Shown here: positions 34,610-43,651 of the stretch, one piece after another
How the letters are laid out: each line of letters opens with the position of its first letter
Numbering within the stretch: the first letter of the stretch is position 1
NCBI GenBank assembly: GCA_029262315.1
Contig: JAJCZP010000255.1
Span: forward strand, 1-47,768
Origin: Deltaproteobacteria bacterium
GTDB lineage: Bacteria > Desulfobacterota > Binatia > UTPRO1
DNA length: 47,768 nt
Direction: 5' to 3'
The notes under the pieces: generated by a model
The model's input: the letters and a program-made list of their open reading frames with translations, nothing else
Databases searched by the model: none
What the model was told of the DNA's origin: nothing
Made by a program: the position numbers and the translations under genes

Positions 34610-35832
34610 GTGGGGCCGTCGCTGGATCGGTGCTGGCCCTGGAGACGCGACGTCTCGCGACCACCCACGGTGCCTTCGACGCCCACGTGTATCGGACCCT
34701 TTCCACGGGGAGATCCGCACTCGCGCTCGTACGCGGCGATGTGACGGGCCCGGCGTCCGTCTTGGCGCGGGTGCACTCGTCGTGCGTGACGTCCGAAGTC
34801 TTTGGGAGTTGCGACTGCGATTGTGTCGAGCAGCTGGACGCCGCCCTGGCGGCGATCGCGGACGCCGGTCGCGGCGTGCTGTTCTATCTCATGCAAGAAG
34901 GGCGCGGTGCGGGGTTCACGGCGAAGGTGCGCGATCGGATGATGGTCCAGGCCAGCGGTGAGCGCCTGACGACCTTCGAGGCGTATCAGCGGCTGGGCCT
35001 TGCGCGTGATCACCGCACGTACGGGGAGGTCGCCAGTATCGGTGCGTTGCTGGGCATCGAAGCGCCGCTCACGTTGCTGACCGGCAATCCAGAGAAGCTC
35101 GAGGAACTCGAGCTTGCCGGTGTCGTCGTGGCCGGGACGGTCCCGTTTCGCGGCGCGGCGTCGCCGTTCAACGCGCACTACCTTCGTACGAAGTTGCCGT
35201 TGTCGGAGCTTGCATCGGGGGACCAGACGCCCGTGGCGACGCTTCCCGAGTCCGTCGAGTATTTCGAGCCCTTTGTACCGGAAGGGATGCCGCACCTTCT
35301 GCGTACCGCTTCGTACCTGTTGCCGATCGTGTTGCCGGAAGCGACCGAAGCGCAGGGCGGGGCCGCGGGGTCTGAGGTGCGCTGGTTTCGCCTGCATGCC
35401 TACGTCGATCTCTTGGCGAATCACGAGCGTGCTGTGCTGCACTATCGCGCTCCTGGAGACGCCCGTGTGGACGGTGCACCGTTGGTGCGCGTACAGTCGA
35501 CGCCGCTGCTCGATCGTTTCCCGTTGCTGGACGACGCCGTGGACAAGGGGCGCTGGCGAGCGACGGTGCGCGCGTTCGTTCGACACGGGAGCGGGTACGC
35601 GGTGTTCCGTGTCGCCGAACGCGATGGCATCGCGACGCCACCCGAGGACGACGCGCTCGCCGTGTCCCGGATGCTGGCGCATCACCTCGGCGGCCGTCGG
35701 GCTCGTCCGGTGTTCGATGGGGGTGTGACGAGCCCGCGCGATGCGGTGTTGGTCGAAGGACTCCGCGCGCAAGGGATCGTCCTCGATCCTCCGCTGCTGC
35801 TCGCTTGCCGAGATGGTGACGATGTCCGCTGA
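34606..35832 (+). CDS. GTP cyclohydrolase II-like protein with ~200-residue extension
   Basis: 408 residues; ordinary RibA is about 200. Residues 10-200 align with RibA: ARVHSSC, then CDC (zinc ligands Cys60, Cys71, Cys73), YLMQEGRGAGF in place of YHRQEGRNIGL, and Asp135/Arg137 in the ARDHRTYG loop that corresponds to the nucleophile region. Changes relative to E. coli RibA include Asp before the CDC in place of Arg, and Met for Arg ahead of QEGR. The C-terminal half has no motif I recognise. It starts at the GTGA overlap with the cytochrome gene and ends inside the start of the next gene, so the three are translationally coupled. A purine/pyrimidine substrate is likely; true GTP cyclohydrolase II activity is doubtful. 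Confidence 0.72.
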   Translation: MSGAVAGSVLALETRRLATTHGAFDAHVYRTLSTGRSALALVRGDVTGPASVLARVHSSCVTSEVFGSCDCDCVEQLDAALAAIADAGRGVLFYLMQEGRGAGFTAKVRDRMMVQASGERLTTFEAYQRLGLARDHRTYGEVASIGALLGIEAPLTLLTGNPEKLEELELAGVVVAGTVPFRGAASPFNAHYLRTKLPLSELASGDQTPVATLPESVEYFEPFVPEGMPHLLRTASYLLPIVLPEATEAQGGAAGSEVRWFRLHAYVDLLANHERAVLHYRAPGDARVDGAPLVRVQSTPLLDRFPLLDDAVDKGRWRATVRAFVRHGSGYAVFRVAERDGIATPPEDDALAVSRMLAHHLGGRRARPVFDGGVTSPRDAVLVEGLRAQGIVLDPPLLLACRDGDDVR

Positions 35833-37759
35833 AACGAGCGTGCCATCCTGGCGTGCGGGCTGCGATAGCCTGCGCGCTCGGATCCGCTCGCTGCCCGATA
35901 TCTTGGGCGCCGCGCTCGTGCGGCCGATTCAACCGGTGCGGCTCGCGGTGCGTCCGGCGACGGGATTCGTCGTCACAGGTGTCGGGAGCTCGGCTGCGCA
36001 CGCGCGATTCCTCGTGTTTCTTCTGGCTGAAGGGCTGGGGCTTCGGGCACGCTTCCGGCCACTTGGGGATTTTCTCGACCCGAGCGCGCTCGATACACGT
36101 ACCGATATCCTCATCGTGATCTCGCAGGGGCTGTCTCCGAATGCGCGCGTCGCTCTTCAGCACGCCGACAACTGGGCGGGGCGTGTGCTCCTCACGGCCA
36201 CGACCGCGGCCGGCGCCAAGCGAGACGGCAAGGACGAGAAGGCAGCCTTGCTTGCGGAGCTCGAGGCGTCTGGCGTCGAGGTCCATCCGTTCCCTGCCGG
36301 CGAGGATGAGTACGACACGCTCGTTCGGGTCGTGGGCCCACTCGTCGGGTATCTTGTGGCGATTCGGCTGGTGCATGCGCTTGCAGCGGCACTCGGGCGC
36401 ACCCTGCCGATCCAGGCCGATCAGCTTGCGCTGATACCCGCACGCGTCGCCGCGGCGCCCGAGGTCGTTGCGACGATTCTCGATGGTACTCGCGATCTCG
36501 TCGAGCGTCTGGGGGGCCCGTTGACCTTGCTCGCGACGGGGGGATACGCGGAGCTGGCCGAGAACCTTCGCTACAAGGTTCTCGAGGGCATGTTGCGGCC
36601 GCTGCCTCCCGTTTTCGATCTCATGCATCTGGCGCACGGTCCCTACCAGCAGATGCATGCGCATCCGATGACCCTCGTCGCACTGACCCGGACGACGCTT
36701 GCCAGCGAGCCCGCGATGCTGGCGCGCGTGGAGGCGATGCTGGTGCCGGAGCGCCACCGACTGGTGCGTCTTCCCGCGACGCTTCCAGGTCCGCTTGCCG
36801 TCTTCGAGCACGAGGCGCTGATGAACGAGTTGATGGTGCGCGTGATCGAAGCCGATGGGCTCGACCAGGTGTCCTGGCCGGGTCGCGGCGCCGATGCGCC
36901 GCTGTACGATGTGCGCGCTTCCCCGAAGAGCCATCCCTCCGTCGCCTTTGTCGGCGGCGCGCACTCGCGGACGCCCGCGAGCACCGACGCCGCTTCCCGA
37001 CGTCTGGAGATGTTGACCTGGCCCGAGATGGCGCGACTCCTCGCTGCCGAGGCGCTGACGGCGGTGATTCCGCTCGGCTCGACCGAGCAGCACGGCGCGC
37101 ATCTTCCATTCGCGACCGACACGCGGATTGCGGAGGCACTCGGAGTTCGCTTCTGCGCACGGGTTCCCGAGGCGATCTTGCTGCCGACGTTACCGCTCGG
37201 GTGCGCTTCGGAGCACATGGGATTCCAGGGGACGCTCGACCTCCGTGCGGAAACCCTGTCTGCCGTGCTGATCGACATCGTCGCGAGCTTGCGGACGCAC
37301 GGGTTCGCGCGGGCCTTCATCTTTTCGGCGCACGGGGGAAACGTCGACGCGCTGACCGAGGCGCTGCCCACCCTGCGGGTCGCGGGGAAGCCCATGCTGG
37401 TGAGTGCCCATGCCGCGCTCGCCGATCTGACTCGCCTCTGGCACGAGGCCAGTGCCGAGCATGGTATCGGGGCCTCGGTTTCTGGCCATCATGCCGGCGA
37501 GTACGAGACGTCGATCGTGCGCGCGTTGTGGCCGGGCGCCGTCCGTGAGGACGCCGTCGCACGCGGGCTCGTCACCGCGACCGATGACCCGCAGTCCCTG
37601 TTCTATCCGAGCCTCGCGACGCACGCGCCAAGCGGCACGGTTGGCGATCCACGCGCAGCCGACGCCGCGCGTGGCGAACGCTATCTCGAGGCCTGGGTCG
37701 CGGAACTCGTTTCGACGTACCAGCTCGAGAAGAAGAGCGCGTACACGACGGGCAGGTAG
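35822..37759 (+). CDS. Fusion protein: SIS (sugar-isomerase) domains plus creatininase-family amidohydrolase
   Basis: 645 residues from the ATG 35822, 11 bp inside the preceding gene; the ATG at 35813 is an alternative. The first ~370 residues carry SIS-type signatures, VVTGVGSSAAHARFL and ILIVISQGLSPNARVAL, with a second SIS-like half, as in glucosamine-6-phosphate isomerising enzymes. From about residue 394 a creatininase domain begins: LGSTEQHGAHLPFATDT supplies metal ligands Glu422, His424 and Asp433, SAHGGNVDA and HHAGEYETS complete the site. That family includes creatinine amidohydrolase, archaeal ArfB (deformylates the riboflavin/F420 precursor) and MftE. The gene follows a GTP-cyclohydrolase-like gene, as ArfB-type chemistry would predict. 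Its 3' end overlaps the convergent membrane-protein gene by 79 bp. Confidence 0.78.
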   Translation: MSAETSVPSWRAGCDSLRARIRSLPDILGAALVRPIQPVRLAVRPATGFVVTGVGSSAAHARFLVFLLAEGLGLRARFRPLGDFLDPSALDTRTDILIVISQGLSPNARVALQHADNWAGRVLLTATTAAGAKRDGKDEKAALLAELEASGVEVHPFPAGEDEYDTLVRVVGPLVGYLVAIRLVHALAAALGRTLPIQADQLALIPARVAAAPEVVATILDGTRDLVERLGGPLTLLATGGYAELAENLRYKVLEGMLRPLPPVFDLMHLAHGPYQQMHAHPMTLVALTRTTLASEPAMLARVEAMLVPERHRLVRLPATLPGPLAVFEHEALMNELMVRVIEADGLDQVSWPGRGADAPLYDVRASPKSHPSVAFVGGAHSRTPASTDAASRRLEMLTWPEMARLLAAEALTAVIPLGSTEQHGAHLPFATDTRIAEALGVRFCARVPEAILLPTLPLGCASEHMGFQGTLDLRAETLSAVLIDIVASLRTHGFARAFIFSAHGGNVDALTEALPTLRVAGKPMLVSAHAALADLTRLWHEASAEHGIGASVSGHHAGEYETSIVRALWPGAVREDAVARGLVTATDDPQSLFYPSLATHAPSGTVGDPRAADAARGERYLEAWVAELVSTYQLEKKSAYTTGR

Positions 37760-38490
37760 AACGCGTAGTAGAGTTGGTTCGGCACCATGCGGAGCAGCCA
37801 ACCGAGGTCGACCTCGGCCATGATCAACATGTCTGCCGTCGCCCACAGCGTGTAGTAGATAGCGACGTAGCCGAGGACGTCCCGGAGGTAGGCCGCGATG
37901 GGCGCCTGGGCCCCCACGACGGTGCGTGGAACGAGGCGGTGGCGTAGCCACCAGGCGAGGCCGAGGAAGGACAGCTCGTACACGAGCCACAACACCTGCG
38001 GATGCAGGGGGCCGGCGGCCATCCGCGCGACGCCGACCAGTACTCCGGTCGTCACCGGGACCAGGAACGTCCAGGACGCGGCCCGTGCGATGACCGTGCC
38101 GAGTTCGATCTCTGGCGGGCGACCCGTGGACGCTCGACACCCGACGGCGAGCAAATAGAAGACGAGGAGCAGCACACGGAAGTCGCCGAGCAGTACGAAC
38201 GCGAACATGACGAGGGTCGCCATCCATCCGTCCGCGAGGCCGAGCCACCGTACCAAGAGCCCGCCCGCGAGTGGATCGAGGATGGTCTCGAGCCCGAAGA
38301 TGAAAGCATAGGTCGCCATGAGCCCGCTGGCGCCCGGGGCGACCATCGACGGACGAGGGCTCGGAGCCAGCCGGATGTAGAGCAGGAACGCGACTGGCAC
38401 GACCCAGAGCGCGTACACACCCTGGACATCGGTCGCGTAGAGCGCGTGCCAGTGAGCGAGCGAGGATTCCACGAGGCTAGGGCCGTCCAC
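37681..38490 (-). CDS. Polytopic membrane protein of unknown function
   Basis: 269 residues with about eight hydrophobic helices (first VYALWVVPVAFLLYIRL; last YYAFYLPVVYALFFSSWYV). The start is a GTG at 38490 without a clear ribosome-binding site; a GTG at 38472 is possible. No catalytic or transporter signature. Conserved-looking WAT, NQLYYAFYLPV and RDVLGYVAIYYTLWATADML segments suggest a defined family I do not recognise. It is convergent with the SIS-creatininase gene and its last 26 codons overlap that gene's 3' end. Confidence 0.75.
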   Translation of the reverse strand: MDGPSLVESSLAHWHALYATDVQGVYALWVVPVAFLLYIRLAPSPRPSMVAPGASGLMATYAFIFGLETILDPLAGGLLVRWLGLADGWMATLVMFAFVLLGDFRVLLLVFYLLAVGCRASTGRPPEIELGTVIARAASWTFLVPVTTGVLVGVARMAAGPLHPQVLWLVYELSFLGLAWWLRHRLVPRTVVGAQAPIAAYLRDVLGYVAIYYTLWATADMLIMAEVDLGWLLRMVPNQLYYAFYLPVVYALFFSSWYVETSSATQASR

Positions 38491-38726
38491 ACTTGTCGAG
38501 ATGTCTGCCGCGATTGCTGATGCCGCGGTAGTCTAGTTGGCGTGGGTCCGGTGTGCGAGCCCCGGTGGTCGTGTATCGCAAACGCCCGGAGACGGTGGTG
38601 GGTGTCGTGGCTGGCTGGCTCGGGCCTCGGTCCGAGCCCGCTGCGTGGCGTGACGGTGATGCCAGAATGCGACGGCCTCATCGCACCCGGGCGTCGCCGC
38701 ATGGCCCGAGGGTTAGTCAGGTTGTA

Positions 38727-39548
38727 CTAGGGGAGTAGGCATTGGCAGGCTGGTCCTCGGCCCCCCTCTGTGGTTACTCCGAGCCCGCCCGTACAGATCG
38801 CGAGCGGCGAGGGGCAAAATCCGCCGCATGTTCCCGTCTGGTTGTCCGGCGCGACCATATCGTTACTGCTGCACAGCTGCAGGGCCGGCACGCAGCTGCA
38901 TGGGACCTCACGTCCTCCTGGGTCGCCGGTGAACGCGCATTCGAATCCCGGGTCGCAGTCGCCACCGCAGATGTCCTGGGGGGTGAAGTTCTGGGCGTCC
39001 CCCTGTGCATCGATGATGAGTCGGCACGTGTTCGGATTCGGCGTGCTGGTCGGGGCCGGGGTTGGGGTGAAGGTCGGGGTGACCGTGTCCGTGGGCTCCG
39101 GGCTTGGGAGGATCTTGTTGGCCGGCATGCAGAGGAAGTCGGACTTCCGGATGCGAAGCGCCCGGGCGCCGAACCGATCGAAGGCATCGACGTCGAGGCG
39201 ATCACGATCGCATTTGAGATCGTAGCAGAGGTAGTCGCGGCTGGGGTCGGCGTTTACGGGGAACGTCTCGAAGGGCTCGCCGTCGACCTCGCCATTCACC
39301 TCGAGATCATCCGCGGCGACGTTGACGCAGAAGTGCGAGGCGGGAAGTCGAATCCGACAGTCGGCGCGGGCCGCCAACGGGGCTTCGGGGTAGATGTCGG
39401 CGAGATAGATGGTCCGGTGATTGACGAGGCTGTCGCGGATCTTGAAACACTTCAAGTTGTCGAATCCGCCGCCCGCGTGCGCGACGCCGCTGGTGACCGC
39501 GATGGCGGCGATCGCGATGGCCAGGGTGAGCCGTGGTAGTGCTTTCAT
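38727..39548 (-). CDS. Secreted cysteine-rich protein, type L (third copy)
   Basis: 273 residues from the ATG 39548 (AGAGG five bases upstream); the frame continues upstream to 39866 inside the neighbouring S gene and is not the start. Signal peptide to about residue 25. The N-terminal domain has six conserved cysteines in the pattern KCFK...DCRIRLP...FCV...YLCYDLKC...DFLCMP, followed by a Thr/Pro linker (PTDTVTPTFTPTPAPT) and a C-terminal domain with two CGG(D/F)C-x-n-C-x-n-CxC modules. A five-residue insertion before GEPFETF distinguishes it from copies 1 and 2. Last gene of the L-S-L-S-L array. Function unknown; exported and probably surface-linked. Confidence 0.85.
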   Translation of the reverse strand: MKALPRLTLAIAIAAIAVTSGVAHAGGGFDNLKCFKIRDSLVNHRTIYLADIYPEAPLAARADCRIRLPASHFCVNVAADDLEVNGEVDGEPFETFPVNADPSRDYLCYDLKCDRDRLDVDAFDRFGARALRIRKSDFLCMPANKILPSPEPTDTVTPTFTPTPAPTSTPNPNTCRLIIDAQGDAQNFTPQDICGGDCDPGFECAFTGDPGGREVPCSCVPALQLCSSNDMVAPDNQTGTCGGFCPSPLAICTGGLGVTTEGGRGPACQCLLP

Positions 39549-39595
39549 GATGACCTCTCTCGTCTCGGGGCGGTTCTTACGGGCAGCCCTGCGTG

Positions 39596-40057
39596 TCACT
39601 GGATTGGGGCGTCGACGGTGCCGGGTTGGCAGAAGTAGTCTGCACGCCGGATCTCGATCATGCGCCGGCCGAGTTGATCTTCGACCTCGATCTCGAGGCC
39701 GCTGCCTCGCGGGCCCTCGGGCGGGCACCGGACCTGGTAGCAGAGGTAGGGCTGGGCTTCTTCCGTATAGAGATGCGTGGTTTCGACGTCCTCGCCATCG
39801 CGGGTACGGACGTTGAACTTGTTGGCTGGCACACAGGCATTGCTCGAGCGCAGACGGATCCGGCATCGCTGCGCGGCGAAGAGCGGGTACTGCTCCGGCG
39901 TGAGCAGCGCCGTCGCCTTCAGGTTTGGTATCTCCCGATCGGTGTTGGCCAAGCAGTAGAGGTGATCACGTGGCTGGCCGGCGCCAGCGAGACCGCTCAG
40001 GAGCAGCGGGAGAGTCAGGGCGATCGCGATGGTCGCTGTCGTCAGTTTTGAAGTCAT
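39596..40057 (-). CDS. Secreted cysteine-rich protein, type S (second copy)
   Basis: 153 residues from the ATG 40057 with AAAGG upstream. Signal peptide about 1-26 (ALTLPLLLSGLAGAG). One domain only: DHLYCLANTDREIPNLKAT, LTPEQYPLFAAQRCRIRLR, NACVPANKFNV, PYLCYQVRCPPEG, EVEDQLGRRMIEIRRADYFCQPG. Its six cysteines align with those of the type L N-terminal domain, so S is an L without linker and tail. Nearly identical to the first S copy (40957-41415) over long DNA stretches. It lies 29 bp after the L2 stop and 47 bp before L3. Function unknown. Confidence 0.85.
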   Translation of the reverse strand: MTSKLTTATIAIALTLPLLLSGLAGAGQPRDHLYCLANTDREIPNLKATALLTPEQYPLFAAQRCRIRLRSSNACVPANKFNVRTRDGEDVETTHLYTEEAQPYLCYQVRCPPEGPRGSGLEIEVEDQLGRRMIEIRRADYFCQPGTVDAPIQ

Positions 40058-40086
40058 CTCAGAGCCTTTCTTCGTGCACGGGTGAG

Positions 40087-40872
40087 TTAGAAGGGGACGC
40101 ATGAACATTCAAGGACCGGGCGGCCACCCGACGCGCTGCCCGTCGTTGACTGACAGATCGTGAATGGCGAGATGCATGCGCCACCGCACACCGGCGCCTC
40201 GTTGGCTGGGGGGTCCAGTTGTTCCCCACACAGAGCATCCTCGGGGACGCACTGGCAATCGACGGTGCGCGTGTTTGGCCCCGTGGTGCTCGCGCAGACA
40301 CTTCCAGGCTCGCAGTCTCCACCGCAGGTTCCCAAGATGTTGCCGTTGGCGTCGGGTCCTTGATCGAACTGACACCCCATCGGCTCTGGTGTCATGGTCG
40401 GCATCGGGGTGGGCGTGTCGGTCGGCGCTGGCGTGGGCGGCGGAATCTTGTTGGCGGGCATGCAGAGGAAGTCGGACTTCCGGATGCGCAGCGTCCGGGC
40501 GCCGAATTGATCGAACGCGTCGACGTCGCGGCGGTCACGATCGCATTTGAGATCGTAGCAGAGGTAGTCGCGGCCGGAATCGGCGTCGACGGGAAAGGTG
40601 TCGAAGGGCTCGCCGTTGACCTGGACTTCCTCCTTGGCGACGTTGACGCAGAAGTGCGAGGCGGGAAGTCGAATCCGACAGTCGGCGCGGGCCGCCAACG
40701 GGGCCTGGGGGTAGATGTCGGCAAGATAGATGGTTCGGCGGTCGACCAGGCTGTCGCGAATCTTGAAACACTTCAGGTGATCGTAGTCGAGGTCGTTCGC
40801 GTGGACGGGGTTGCTTGCGCCAGCGATGGCAACGACGATGGCAGCCAGCGCGACACGGGTCAGGGATTTCAT
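40087..40872 (-). CDS. Secreted cysteine-rich protein, type L (second copy)
   Basis: 261 residues from the ATG 40872. Signal peptide about 1-24 (IVVAIAGASNPVHA). The six-cysteine N-terminal domain (HLKCFKIRDSLVDRRTIYLAD...DFLCMPANKI) is followed by a shorter, different Thr/Pro linker (PTDTPTPMPTMTPEP) and two modules, TCGGDCEPGSVC...CQC and VCGGACISPFTIC...CSC. It shares the N-terminal mature start NDLDYDHLKCF with L1 but the DCRIRLPASH stretch with L3, suggesting exchange between copies. 84 bp separate it from the S1 stop; S2 follows after 29 bp. Function unknown. Confidence 0.85.
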   Translation of the reverse strand: MKSLTRVALAAIVVAIAGASNPVHANDLDYDHLKCFKIRDSLVDRRTIYLADIYPQAPLAARADCRIRLPASHFCVNVAKEEVQVNGEPFDTFPVDADSGRDYLCYDLKCDRDRRDVDAFDQFGARTLRIRKSDFLCMPANKIPPPTPAPTDTPTPMPTMTPEPMGCQFDQGPDANGNILGTCGGDCEPGSVCASTTGPNTRTVDCQCVPEDALCGEQLDPPANEAPVCGGACISPFTICQSTTGSASGGRPVLECSCVPF

Positions 40873-40956
40873 GGTACCTCCAGGAAAGAAGAGGGAGCGT
40901 GTGTCACATGATCGCACGGATCTCATCGAGTCTCAGGACGGGCAGTCGCCAGCGTC

Positions 40957-41415
40957 TCACATCCGAGCAGGGACTTCCCCCGGTTGGCAGAAGTAGTCGG
41001 CACGTCTGATCTCGATCATGCGCCGGCCGAGTTGATCTTCGACCTCGATCTCGAGGCCGCTGCCTCGCGGGCCCTCCGGCGGGCACCGGACCTGGTAGCA
41101 GAGGTAGGGCTGGGCGTCTTCTGCATAGATATGGGTGGTCTCGACGTCCTCGCCGTCGCGGGTTCGGACGTTGTCCTTGACGGTTGGCACACAGACATTG
41201 CCCGAGCGCAGTCGGATGCGGCAGCGCTGCGCGGCGAAGAGCGGGTACTGCTCCGGCGTCAGCAGCGCCGTCGCCTTCAGGTTCGGTATCTCCCGGTCGG
41301 TGTTGGCCAGGCAGTAGAGGTGGTCGCGTGGCTCGCCCGCCGTGGCGCTTTGGACGAGCAGCAGTGGCAGCGCAATGGCAGTGGCCATGATGAAAAGAGT
41401 GAGTCTCGAAGTCAT
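40957..41415 (-). CDS. Secreted cysteine-rich protein, type S (first copy)
   Basis: 152 residues from the ATG 41415 (AAAGG upstream); the frame to 41709 runs back through the L1 gene and is rejected. Signal peptide about 1-27 (ATAIALPLLLVQSATAG). Same single six-cysteine domain as the second S copy: CLANTDREIPNLKATALL and YPLFAAQRCRIRLRSG, with the loop VCVPTVKDNVRTRDGED differing most. It sits 29 bp after the L1 stop, exactly the spacing seen between L2 and S2, which shows that an L-S pair was duplicated as a unit. Confidence 0.85.
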   Translation of the reverse strand: MTSRLTLFIMATAIALPLLLVQSATAGEPRDHLYCLANTDREIPNLKATALLTPEQYPLFAAQRCRIRLRSGNVCVPTVKDNVRTRDGEDVETTHIYAEDAQPYLCYQVRCPPEGPRGSGLEIEVEDQLGRRMIEIRRADYFCQPGEVPARM

Positions 41416-41444
41416 GAGAGAGCCTTTCTTCAGATCGTTGGTGG

Positions 41445-42215
41445 CTAGCGCAGTACGCATTGGCATTGGTCCGGGTTGCCGGCGGCATTGTCCGCGATGC
41501 AGACCTCGTGCAAACCGGGGCAAAAGCCGCCACAGCTGCCACGGTCGACGTTGGCGGTCTGTTGACCGCACGCCAGGAAATCGTCGAGGCACCTGCACTC
41601 GGCGGGCCCCCGAGCGGGAGGCTGGTTGTCGAATCCGCAGATTTGGCCCTCCGGGCAGTCGCCGCCGCACATGCCTTCGCCACCATTTGCGCCGATGATC
41701 ACCTGGCACCCCGTTGGCATGGGGGTCATGGTCGGGGCCGGGGTCGGGGTGAAGGTCGGGGTGACCGTGTCCGTGGGTTCCGGGCTTGGGAGGATCTTGT
41801 TGGCGGGCATGCAGAGGAAGTCGGACTTCCGGATGCGCAGACGCCGGGCGCCGAATTGATCGAGAGCGTCGACGTCGAGGCGGTCACGATCGCATTTGAG
41901 GTCGTAGCAGAGGTAGTCGCGGCCGGGATCGGCCTCGACGAGCAACGTGTCGAAGGGCTCTCCGTTGACCTCGACCTCCTCCTTGGCGACGTTGACGCAG
42001 AAGTGCGCGGCGGGCAGTCGGAGCCGACAGTCGGTGCGGGCCGCCAACGGGGCCTGTGGGTAGACGTCGGCGAGATAGATGGTCCGGCGGTCGGTGAGGC
42101 TATCGCGAATCTTGAAACACTTCAGGTGGTCGTAGTCGAGGTCGTTTGCGTGCGCGAGGCCACTCGTCGCGGCGATGGCGAGTACGAGGGTGGCGAGAAC
42201 GAGACGGGTCTTCAT
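41445..42215 (-). CDS. Secreted cysteine-rich protein, type L (first copy)
   Basis: 256 residues from the ATG 42215 with a GGAGG upstream (minus strand). Signal peptide about 1-23, ending AHA. The N-terminal domain carries the six cysteines (KCFK, DCRLRLP, FCV, YLCYDLKC, DFLCMP), the linker is PTDTVTPTFTPTPAPT-like, and the tail has two modules beginning MCGGDCPEGQIC and SCGGFCPGLHEVC, each closed by a CxC. First gene of the array, so its upstream region (42216-42481) should hold the promoter for all five. Exported; could be a surface adhesin or a binder of a small ligand. I do not recognise a described family. Confidence 0.85.
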   Translation of the reverse strand: MKTRLVLATLVLAIAATSGLAHANDLDYDHLKCFKIRDSLTDRRTIYLADVYPQAPLAARTDCRLRLPAAHFCVNVAKEEVEVNGEPFDTLLVEADPGRDYLCYDLKCDRDRLDVDALDQFGARRLRIRKSDFLCMPANKILPSPEPTDTVTPTFTPTPAPTMTPMPTGCQVIIGANGGEGMCGGDCPEGQICGFDNQPPARGPAECRCLDDFLACGQQTANVDRGSCGGFCPGLHEVCIADNAAGNPDQCQCVLR

Positions 42216-42341
42216 GGATGAACCTCCAGGCGGAGAAGGGGAATGATTCGCGCGAGACGCGTAGTCGCGACGGAAGGCGCGGGTAGGTGGGATGAAATGG
42301 GCATGCAAGATCCCCAAGCAAGCGACAAATCGGATACGTCG

Positions 42342-42370
42342 AACGTAGCGTGCGCCGGTCCGACGGTCAA
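42342..42370 (-). promoter_or_regulatory. Putative promoter of the L-S-L-S-L array
   Basis: On the minus strand TTGACC (42370-42365, five of six) and TACGTT (42347-42342, three of six) are 17 bp apart, giving a leader of about 120 bases before the first L gene. The -10 is weak. Confidence 0.3.
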
Positions 42371-42448
42371 CGGAAAACTTCACCGCGACGTGCAGGGATT
42401 CTCAAGTAGAGTCAGCTAGTTAGGCTGCCCTATGGCGTGTGCGGTACC

Positions 42449-42464
42449 GTTGACCTGAGTCAAC
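42449..42464. other. Six-bp stem hairpin GTTGAC-CTGA-GTCAAC
   Basis: Perfect inverted repeat 17 bp past the acyl-CoA dehydrogenase stop. No T-run follows on the minus strand, so it is a poor intrinsic terminator; it could equally be an operator for the array downstream. Confidence 0.4.
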
Positions 42465-42481
42465 TTGGCGCAGGCGCAGCC

Positions 42482-43651
42482 TCAATACGACTTGGGCAGT
42501 TCGAGGACATGCTCGGCGAGGTAGTTGAGCGCCATCTGCTGCGACACCGGGGCGATCTTGTAGAGGCGCACCTCCCGCCACAATCGCTCGACGTGGAACT
42601 CCTTTGCGTACCCGTATCCGCCGAGTGTTTGCACCGCGGCGTCGCAGGCGTTGAAGCCCGCTTCGGCTGCGATGACCTTGGCCGCGTTTGCTTCGCGGCC
42701 GCATGGGTGCCCCTGGTCGAAGAGCCACGCGGCCTTCAGGCACAGCAGTTCCGCGGCGTCGAGTTCGGCAAGGGCGTGCGCGAGCGGATGAGCGATCGCC
42801 TGGTTCTTGCCGATCGGTCGGTCGAACACGATGCGCTCCTTGGCATACTGTGTGGCGCGGGCGAGCGCGGCGCGCCCGATACCGACCGCCTCCATCGCGA
42901 TGACGATGCGTTCGGGATTCAGCGAGTCGATGAGATGGTAGAATCCGTTTCCGACGGTGCCGACGACGTCGTCGTTCGAGACCACGAGGTTCTCGATGAA
43001 GAGCTCGTTCGAGTCGACGGCGGCGCGGCCGAGCTTCGAGATGGTTCGGACGGTGATCGCCGAGCGATCGAGGTCCGCGAAGAATAGCGTCATGCCCTTC
43101 AGCGGCTTGTCGGGCGTTTCCTCTCGCGGCGTCGTCCGGGCAAGGAGCAGGATCTTGTTGGCGTTCTGTGCGTTGGTCGTCCACACCTTGTGCCCGTTGA
43201 CGACCCAGGTATCGCCGCGCCGCTCGGCACGGGTCTCGATGCGCGACGTGTCCGTTCCGGCGTTCGGTTCGGTCACGCCGAAGGCCATCACGATTTCGCC
43301 GGTACAAATGTGGGGCAGATAGCGTTCCTTCATCGCCTGCGAGCCGACCTTGATCAACGGCGTTGGCGGGAACATGTAGAAGTGGATGGGGGAGGCGCCA
43401 GAAGTGCCCGCTCCAGAGAGGCAGATCTCATGCAGCACGATCGCCGCTTCGGTGATGCCGAGGCCGGCGCCGCCGAACTCCTCGGGAATCATCAATCCGA
43501 GCCAGCCGGCTTTGGCGAACGCTTCGACGAACTCGTGCGGGTACTCGTGCCGATCGTCCTTGCCGAGCCAGTACTCGGCATCGAAACGGCATGCGAGCGC
43601 GGCGACCTCCTGGCGGATCTGCTCCTGTGCGTCCGAAAGTGCGAAGTCCAT
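42482..43651 (-). CDS. Acyl-CoA dehydrogenase lacking the usual C-terminal catalytic Glu
   Basis: 389 residues from the ATG 43651 with GGAGG upstream; the frame continues to 44353 but homology begins here (MDFALSDAQEQIRQEV). FAD-contact motif FGVTEPNAGTDTS and VWTTNAQNANKILLLAR are present, as is LNPERIVIAMEAVGIGRAAL. At the end, where most family members have a (Y/F)EGT motif providing the base, this one reads VRLYKIAPVSQQM. The base may therefore come from elsewhere, as in isovaleryl- and long-chain enzymes that use a Glu on helix G; the Glu in AMEAVG is a candidate. Divergent from the other acyl-CoA dehydrogenase (129 bp). Confidence 0.9.
   Translation of the reverse strand: MDFALSDAQEQIRQEVAALACRFDAEYWLGKDDRHEYPHEFVEAFAKAGWLGLMIPEEFGGAGLGITEAAIVLHEICLSGAGTSGASPIHFYMFPPTPLIKVGSQAMKERYLPHICTGEIVMAFGVTEPNAGTDTSRIETRAERRGDTWVVNGHKVWTTNAQNANKILLLARTTPREETPDKPLKGMTLFFADLDRSAITVRTISKLGRAAVDSNELFIENLVVSNDDVVGTVGNGFYHLIDSLNPERIVIAMEAVGIGRAALARATQYAKERIVFDRPIGKNQAIAHPLAHALAELDAAELLCLKAAWLFDQGHPCGREANAAKVIAAEAGFNACDAAVQTLGGYGYAKEFHVERLWREVRLYKIAPVSQQMALNYLAEHVLELPKSY

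Follow-up and report, generated by a model that had tools for sequence, protein, structure and literature searches.

A tandem array of probably secreted, cysteine-rich DUF7450-type proteins with alternating long and short genes in a Binatia genome

The closest described relative of the proteins considered here is Pfam PF24247 (DUF7450), a repeat family that is common in the uncultured bacterial class Binatia and for which we found no assigned function. Two other kinds of system invite comparison: polymorphic toxin/immunity arrays, in which a conserved front is joined to a variable tail and a short gene alternates with the long one, and the surface arrays with variable tips of other bacteria. 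Here we analyze a stretch of 47,768 nucleotides (contig JAJCZP010000255.1 of assembly GCA_029262315.1, from a Deltaproteobacteria bacterium of the class Binatia; hereafter the window) that carries five tandem genes, L1-S1-L2-S2-L3, encoding cysteine-rich proteins of a long (L) and a short (S) form. We tentatively read this array as the product of a lineage-specific expansion, in tandem, of DUF7450 proteins that are secreted and locked by disulfides; gene conversion would have kept the N-domains uniform while the L tails diverged, and the most likely role would be adhesion or an extracellular scaffold.

The L N-domain covers about positions 50–151 of the 151-position DUF7450 model, and an LCY...DQFG...LCxP pattern is common to the members of the DUF7450 set examined. 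The array differs from the Pfam family in that only L1 scores over the cut-off and in that most other DUF7450 domains of the same genome are repeats in frames of 168–2028 amino acids (aa). Across the class, 39 of 148 genomes encode single-domain DUF7450-like proteins. These resemble the array proteins in their signal-peptide-like start and six-cysteine N-domain, and many also have a Pro/Thr-rich linker or a cysteine-rich tail; the architecture found in genome G004 (L121/L141) is close to that of L and includes five such modules. Unlike the genes of the window, those of this set are mostly single, and no other five-gene array occurs in it. With polymorphic toxin/immunity arrays the locus shares its layout, whereas its short gene is a homologue of the front domain and shows no co-variation with the tails.

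The five proteins and their family

The window contains five intact open reading frames (ORFs), all on the minus strand, in which three L and two S genes alternate. This confirms the gene order given in the initial annotation and its reading of L as an N-domain, a Thr/Pro linker and a two-module tail and of S as an N-domain only; both L-to-S gaps measure 29 bp, as it had stated. From L1 to L3 the intergenic gaps are 29, 84, 29, and 47 bp. Array copies have exact stretches of up to 69 bp in common, and no N letters occur in the window. Since one of the ten possible orders of three L and two S genes alternates, alternation alone is not improbable.

Each L protein contains 18 cysteines and each S protein contains six. 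In all five proteins a basic N-terminus is followed by a hydrophobic stretch, with no cysteine before the N-domain and no lipobox cysteine; these features, read by eye, agree with the earlier description of secreted cysteine-rich proteins in tandem, for which export is a prediction from the sequence. The six cysteines of the N-domain stand at the family columns in all five window proteins, and among 74 N-domains these columns are kept in 74, 74, 74, 73, 74, and 71. L082 lacks the cysteines of the fourth and sixth columns together, a joint loss that suggests that these two residues may pair as a disulfide. In the first gene of L169, the gap at the sixth column is due to domain trimming, as the cysteine stands just past the cut. 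An AlphaFold2 model of the L2 N-domain, made from 15 sequences, is mainly beta, with a mean predicted local distance difference test score (pLDDT) of 80 and a predicted template modeling score of 0.70; a full-length L1 model built from five rows reached a pLDDT of 41 and was set aside. Taken together, the array proteins are probably secreted, disulfide-stabilized modular proteins for adhesion or scaffolding, with export, disulfides and role all predicted.

The annotation had recognized no described family. This does not hold for L, the N-domain of which matches Pfam DUF7450, itself a family without an assigned function: L1 exceeds the curated cut-off and L2 and L3 fall under it (scores in Table 1), and for the last two membership would follow from their homology to L1 (67 and 64% identical, respectively). 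S1 and S2 gave no match to Pfam DUF7450 at E ≤ 1. The S N-domain is homologous to that of L but diverged from it (BLASTP E 3e-17, 32% identity), and profile A2, itself built with S1 and S2 included, finds the two at 4.8e-27 and 9.5e-27.

In the genome of the window, 49 matches to DUF7450 reach E ≤ 0.001 and 46 of these exceed the cut-off; most are repeats in larger open frames. Of nine such frames scanned, eight contain other Pfam modules (TSP3, EGF-like, TIG, Big_7, SdrD_B, ephrin-receptor-like, and beta-propeller repeats) and one contains DUF7450 alone, under the cut-off. Modules of these kinds are typical of extracellular proteins. The large proteins of this genome that join DUF7450 to eukaryote-like modules (TSP3, EGF, ephrin-receptor-like, TIG) include L061, L062, L063, L068, and L076.

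Uniform N-domains and diverging tails

The N-domains of the L copies share 79–89% protein identity with a synonymous divergence (dS) of 0.20–0.34, whereas the L tails share 34–41% identity with a dS of 0.97–1.22 and the L signal peptides have a dS of 0.76–1.26. Pair by pair, N-domain and tail dS are 0.20 and 1.22 for L1-L2, 0.34 and 1.15 for L1-L3, and 0.32 and 0.97 for L2-L3. The S genes behave alike, with an S1-S2 N-domain that is 92% alike and has a dS of 0.28 against 1.45 for the signal peptide. When only codons for shared residues are considered, the N-domain has a lower frequency of synonymous change than the signal peptide and tail combined in the three L pairs (Fisher p 1.3e-7, 0.019, and 0.0028) and a lower one than the signal peptide in S1-S2 (Fisher p 4.7e-5). 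The linker of L1-L3 is homogenized (dS 0.26) and that of the pairs with L2 is not (dS 1.80 and 1.04), which is the mosaic edge expected of conversion.

We compared these values with those of ten other family pairs, eight between genomes and two in tandem, of which eight have tails. The ratio of tail to N-domain dS is 0.8–1.4 in seven of the eight tailed control pairs and 2.3–8 in the window, and the ratio of signal-peptide to N-domain dS is 0.6–2.0 in nine of the ten control pairs and 2.3–5.3 in the window. L1-L2 and S1-S2 show a clear contrast, and the pairs that include L3 a milder one. Together, these data point to gene conversion within the array as the simplest account of uniform N-domains with diverging tails, as far as sequence comparison can tell. 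Exchange of the tails is the alternative; within the genome, the L1 tail finds its closest matches in the tails of L2 and L3, which counts against import from other loci.

Ordinary tandem duplication could also have produced the array without any special function, with the low N-domain dS reflecting codon-level constraint and the tails drifting or being exchanged. This reading, which we consider rather unlikely, is consistent with the seven tandem-pair clusters found elsewhere in the class and with tails that vary freely among family members. It fits less well with the ratio of nonsynonymous to synonymous divergence of the N-domain, which at 0.18–0.35 indicates purifying selection, with the retention of 12 cysteines in every L tail, and with the missing contrast in seven of the eight other tailed pairs.

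Several observations weigh against the conversion and adhesion account. In the eighth tailed control, L087-L092, the N-domain dS is likewise low against that of the tail, with a ratio of 3.3 that is as high as those of two of the three window L pairs (2.3 and 3.3), a point that favors ordinary duplication. The control pair L175-L177 has a saturated signal peptide. A run-length conversion test was uneven (p 0.038, 0.97, 0.001, and 0.045), and tail alignments at 34–41% identity may inflate dS. L170_3, the gene of which is truncated at a contig end, retains the fourth cysteine and has serine at the sixth, which counters a simple disulfide pairing of the two. The adhesion role rests on modules found beside the DUF7450 domain, and a literature search for DUF7450 or PF24247 gave no paper and no published function. 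No promoter- or terminator-like site above chance was found around the array, and a single operon is a prediction. A sequence search for solved relatives gave none that was credible (best E 0.67 and 0.92), and neither did a search of the Protein Data Bank with the N-domain model (Foldseek best E 1.5; VIA-align one row, Z 2.2). Viral structure models likewise gave no credible match to the N-domain model. The missing fold match does not show a new fold.

In our main, tentative reading, the five genes would form one transcription unit, and their products would be exported by the Sec pathway. Ectopic gene conversion would keep the N-domains of L and, separately, those of S uniform, as all of them would have to fit one partner, either each other or one surface ligand. 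The L tails would diverge as variable binding tips, and S would be a tip-less platform, acting alone or as a filler or cap between L subunits. A more elaborate proposal, which we regard as quite unlikely, is a surface system with a uniform platform and a diversifying tip, the DUF7450 counterpart of the variable-tip arrays of other bacteria. Here L and S would be two subunit types, the N-domains of which conversion keeps uniform within each type so that they co-assemble on the cell surface; the six-cysteine tips of L would diversify for binding, and S would be the tip-less spacer or cap. The array is a natural experiment within one genome, with one platform, three tips, and two tip-less forms. 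If conversion is true, then the N-domain would be the jointly constrained part and the tail the free part, which tells which half suits use as bait.

Long and short genes across the class

With a profile of 44 N-domains (E ≤ 1e-10), we found 125 family N-domains in the 39 genomes, that of the window included. Match starts within 3 kb of each other were taken as one cluster, which gave 114 clusters: 106 single genes, seven pairs, and one array of five, that of the window. Neighbors whose domains are set apart by very long genes (G112:C3, G112:C44) therefore do not register as pairs, and the pair count also omits multi-repeat DUF7450 neighbors that fall short of the E-value limit. The best identity outside the window's own genome is 42% to S1 (148 genomes; L086) and 41% to L1 (58 genomes). 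A pattern scan of named genomes gave no close relative of S, and a search with a five-row alignment gave ten named loci, of which five are labeled Deltaproteobacteria, one Candidatus Binatota, three unclassified bacterium, and one is a Phycisphaerales fragment that was not used.

The tails were classified in the 81 distinct family proteins that were read from fetched loci, a set smaller than the 125 matches. Fifteen have a tail of fewer than 25 aa, 57 have a longer tail with at least six cysteines, and nine have another longer tail. Four of the 15 form the end domain of a longer frame (L135, L144, L173, L174) and one is truncated at a contig end (L170_3), which leaves ten S-like genes, including S1 and S2. 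Contig ends also truncate other genes, among them L122 and the second gene of L147, and the tails of such genes may be longer. Of the eight S-like genes besides S1 and S2, L152 and L169 belong to short-then-long pairs of the family in other genomes (L152:4490-6503, L169:1931-3438), L133 and L172 adjoin a larger DUF7450 gene, and L086, L094, L129, and L153 have no family gene in the stretch examined.

The annotation took the alternation to mean that L and S act together, and it named homologues that occur widely as singletons without L-S linkage as evidence to the contrary. The class largely shows this pattern, with single genes in 106 of the 114 clusters, and S-like short genes that stand alone do not support a general L-S partnership. 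Mixed short and long genes make up two of the six judgeable pairs against 1.3 expected by chance (P of two or more, 0.38). L-S pairing is not a rule of the family across the class. A local, species-level partnership is possible; the alternation of long and short genes looks like local duplication rather than a general partnership.

In the strongest form of the partnership, L and S would be dedicated partners of one surface structure and selected to remain paired. The strict alternation, the two L-S units with an equal gap and leader core, the uniformity of the S-copy and of the L-copy N-domains, and the two further same-strand short-then-long pairs (L152, L169) are all consistent with such an arrangement. 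We nonetheless find it unlikely, given the prevalence of single genes, the S-like genes that stand alone, among them the nearest S1 match outside the genome, and mixed pairs that are no commoner than chance.

The alternating order, conserved front and diverged tails also resemble a polymorphic toxin-immunity array in layout, in which L would join an export N-domain to a toxic variable tail and S would be the immunity protein. We consider this highly improbable, as S is homologous to the L N-domain and has a signal-peptide-like start, the S1-S2 N-domain is 92% alike against 34% for the L1-L2 tail, so that S does not track the tail, the tails are copies of a six-cysteine module found in many proteins, and L3 has no following S. 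No toxin family was matched in Pfam by any of the five proteins, and the phage and defense libraries PHROGs and PADLOC gave none for the three of the five array proteins searched; the matches in NCBIfam were weak and far under the cut-off.

The similarity of the two 29-bp gaps lies mainly in a 13-bp core that includes the likely ribosome-binding site (GAAGAAAGGCTCT), at the same offset in both. Outside this core, 2 of 16 gap positions are identical in an ungapped count from the letters; a gapped alignment of the two gaps gives 20 of 28. The earlier claim that an L-S pair was duplicated as a unit and kept as a pair is upheld in part: the shared core is consistent with two L-S units that arose by an old duplication, and the gaps are little alike beyond it. 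Whether S descends from L was addressed with a 74-row tree (without loci L134, L137, L159, L171, and L172, one multi-repeat ORF of L180, and exact duplicates), in which one clade of all five array genes was neither shown nor rejected (approximately unbiased test, p 0.248). A first tree of 45 rows, without L134 and L137, grouped S with L086 and L093 at a support of 81/54, which was too weak, and the grouping was set aside.

Tail modules, coordinates and genomic surroundings

Every L tail carries two modules with the pattern C-x(n)-CGGxC-x(n)-C-x(n)-CxC. The more general pattern, C-x(n)-C-x-G-x-C-x(n)-C-x(n)-C-x-C, is present in 91 copies in 26 of the 81 distinct family proteins, with one to nine copies per protein, and a 30-row profile (E ≤ 1e-4) finds the module in 20 of 58 genomes, that of the window included. 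It is also present in large frames outside the single-domain DUF7450 set (L206, L209, and L210, with five to eight copies). No Pfam match to the module was found in the window proteins or in eight relatives scanned. The sole tail match among the relatives is a STIG1-like cysteine-rich domain (PF04885) in L132, the tail of which is built differently; this domain was not matched in the window proteins. The analysis also marks out a mobile six-cysteine module, without a Pfam match in the scanned proteins, that other large proteins carry as well. Two large module-bearing frames, L198 and L204, share the C-terminal sequence PTSIVPPID after a Thr/Arg-rich stretch, which might be a sorting signal.

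Table 1. Positions of the array genes and their parts in the window
Feature	Position	Strand	Notes
L1 gene	41445-42215	-	256 aa; signal peptide, N-domain, Thr/Pro linker, two six-Cys modules; DUF7450 27.6 bits (cut-off 27)
L1 N-domain	41802-42134	-	DUF7450-type, six Cys
L1 tail	41448-41708	-	two six-Cys modules, 41589-41708 and 41457-41570
S1 leader core	41419-41431	-	13 bp with likely ribosome-binding site, common to S2; from sequence letters
S1 gene	40957-41415	-	152 aa, six Cys; signal peptide and N-domain only; homologous to L1
S1 N-domain	40981-41325	-	
L2 gene	40087-40872	-	261 aa; DUF7450 25.5 bits, under cut-off
L2 N-domain	40453-40785	-	AlphaFold2-modeled as 40441-40800
L2 tail	40090-40374	-	two six-Cys modules
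S2 leader core	40061-40073	-	13 bp, offset identical to that of S1; from sequence letters
S2 gene	39596-40057	-	153 aa, six Cys
S2 N-domain	39623-39967	-	
L3 gene	38727-39548	-	273 aa; DUF7450 21.3 bits, under cut-off
L3 N-domain	39120-39464	-	
L3 tail	38730-39026	-	two six-Cys modules

No structured RNA was found at positions 38000-43000. A literature search on Binatota combined with cysteine-rich and secreted gave no paper, the terms secreted, cysteine, extracellular, DUF, and adhesin are not mentioned in the main text of PMC8262859, and among the papers given by a search on gene conversion in secreted paralogues no title names DUF7450.

The genes that flank the array are sparsely shared. 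The upstream acyl-CoA dehydrogenase has a match in one of five other family-bearing genomes (35%; E ≤ 1e-60), and the downstream membrane-like protein (37681-38490) has homologues in two of the five, one of which, in G004, has a lone family domain at a distance of about 14 kb and no array beside it. With so little shared synteny, no empty site is readable. Farther along, at 35741-37759 on the plus strand, a 672-aa ORF contains a creatininase domain only at residues 424-658, the part before it having no Pfam match at 1e-5. The two homologues of the membrane-like protein, G004:C4:79565-80368 (L189) and G002:C25:122461-123273 (L190), each contain one in-frame TAG within the match.

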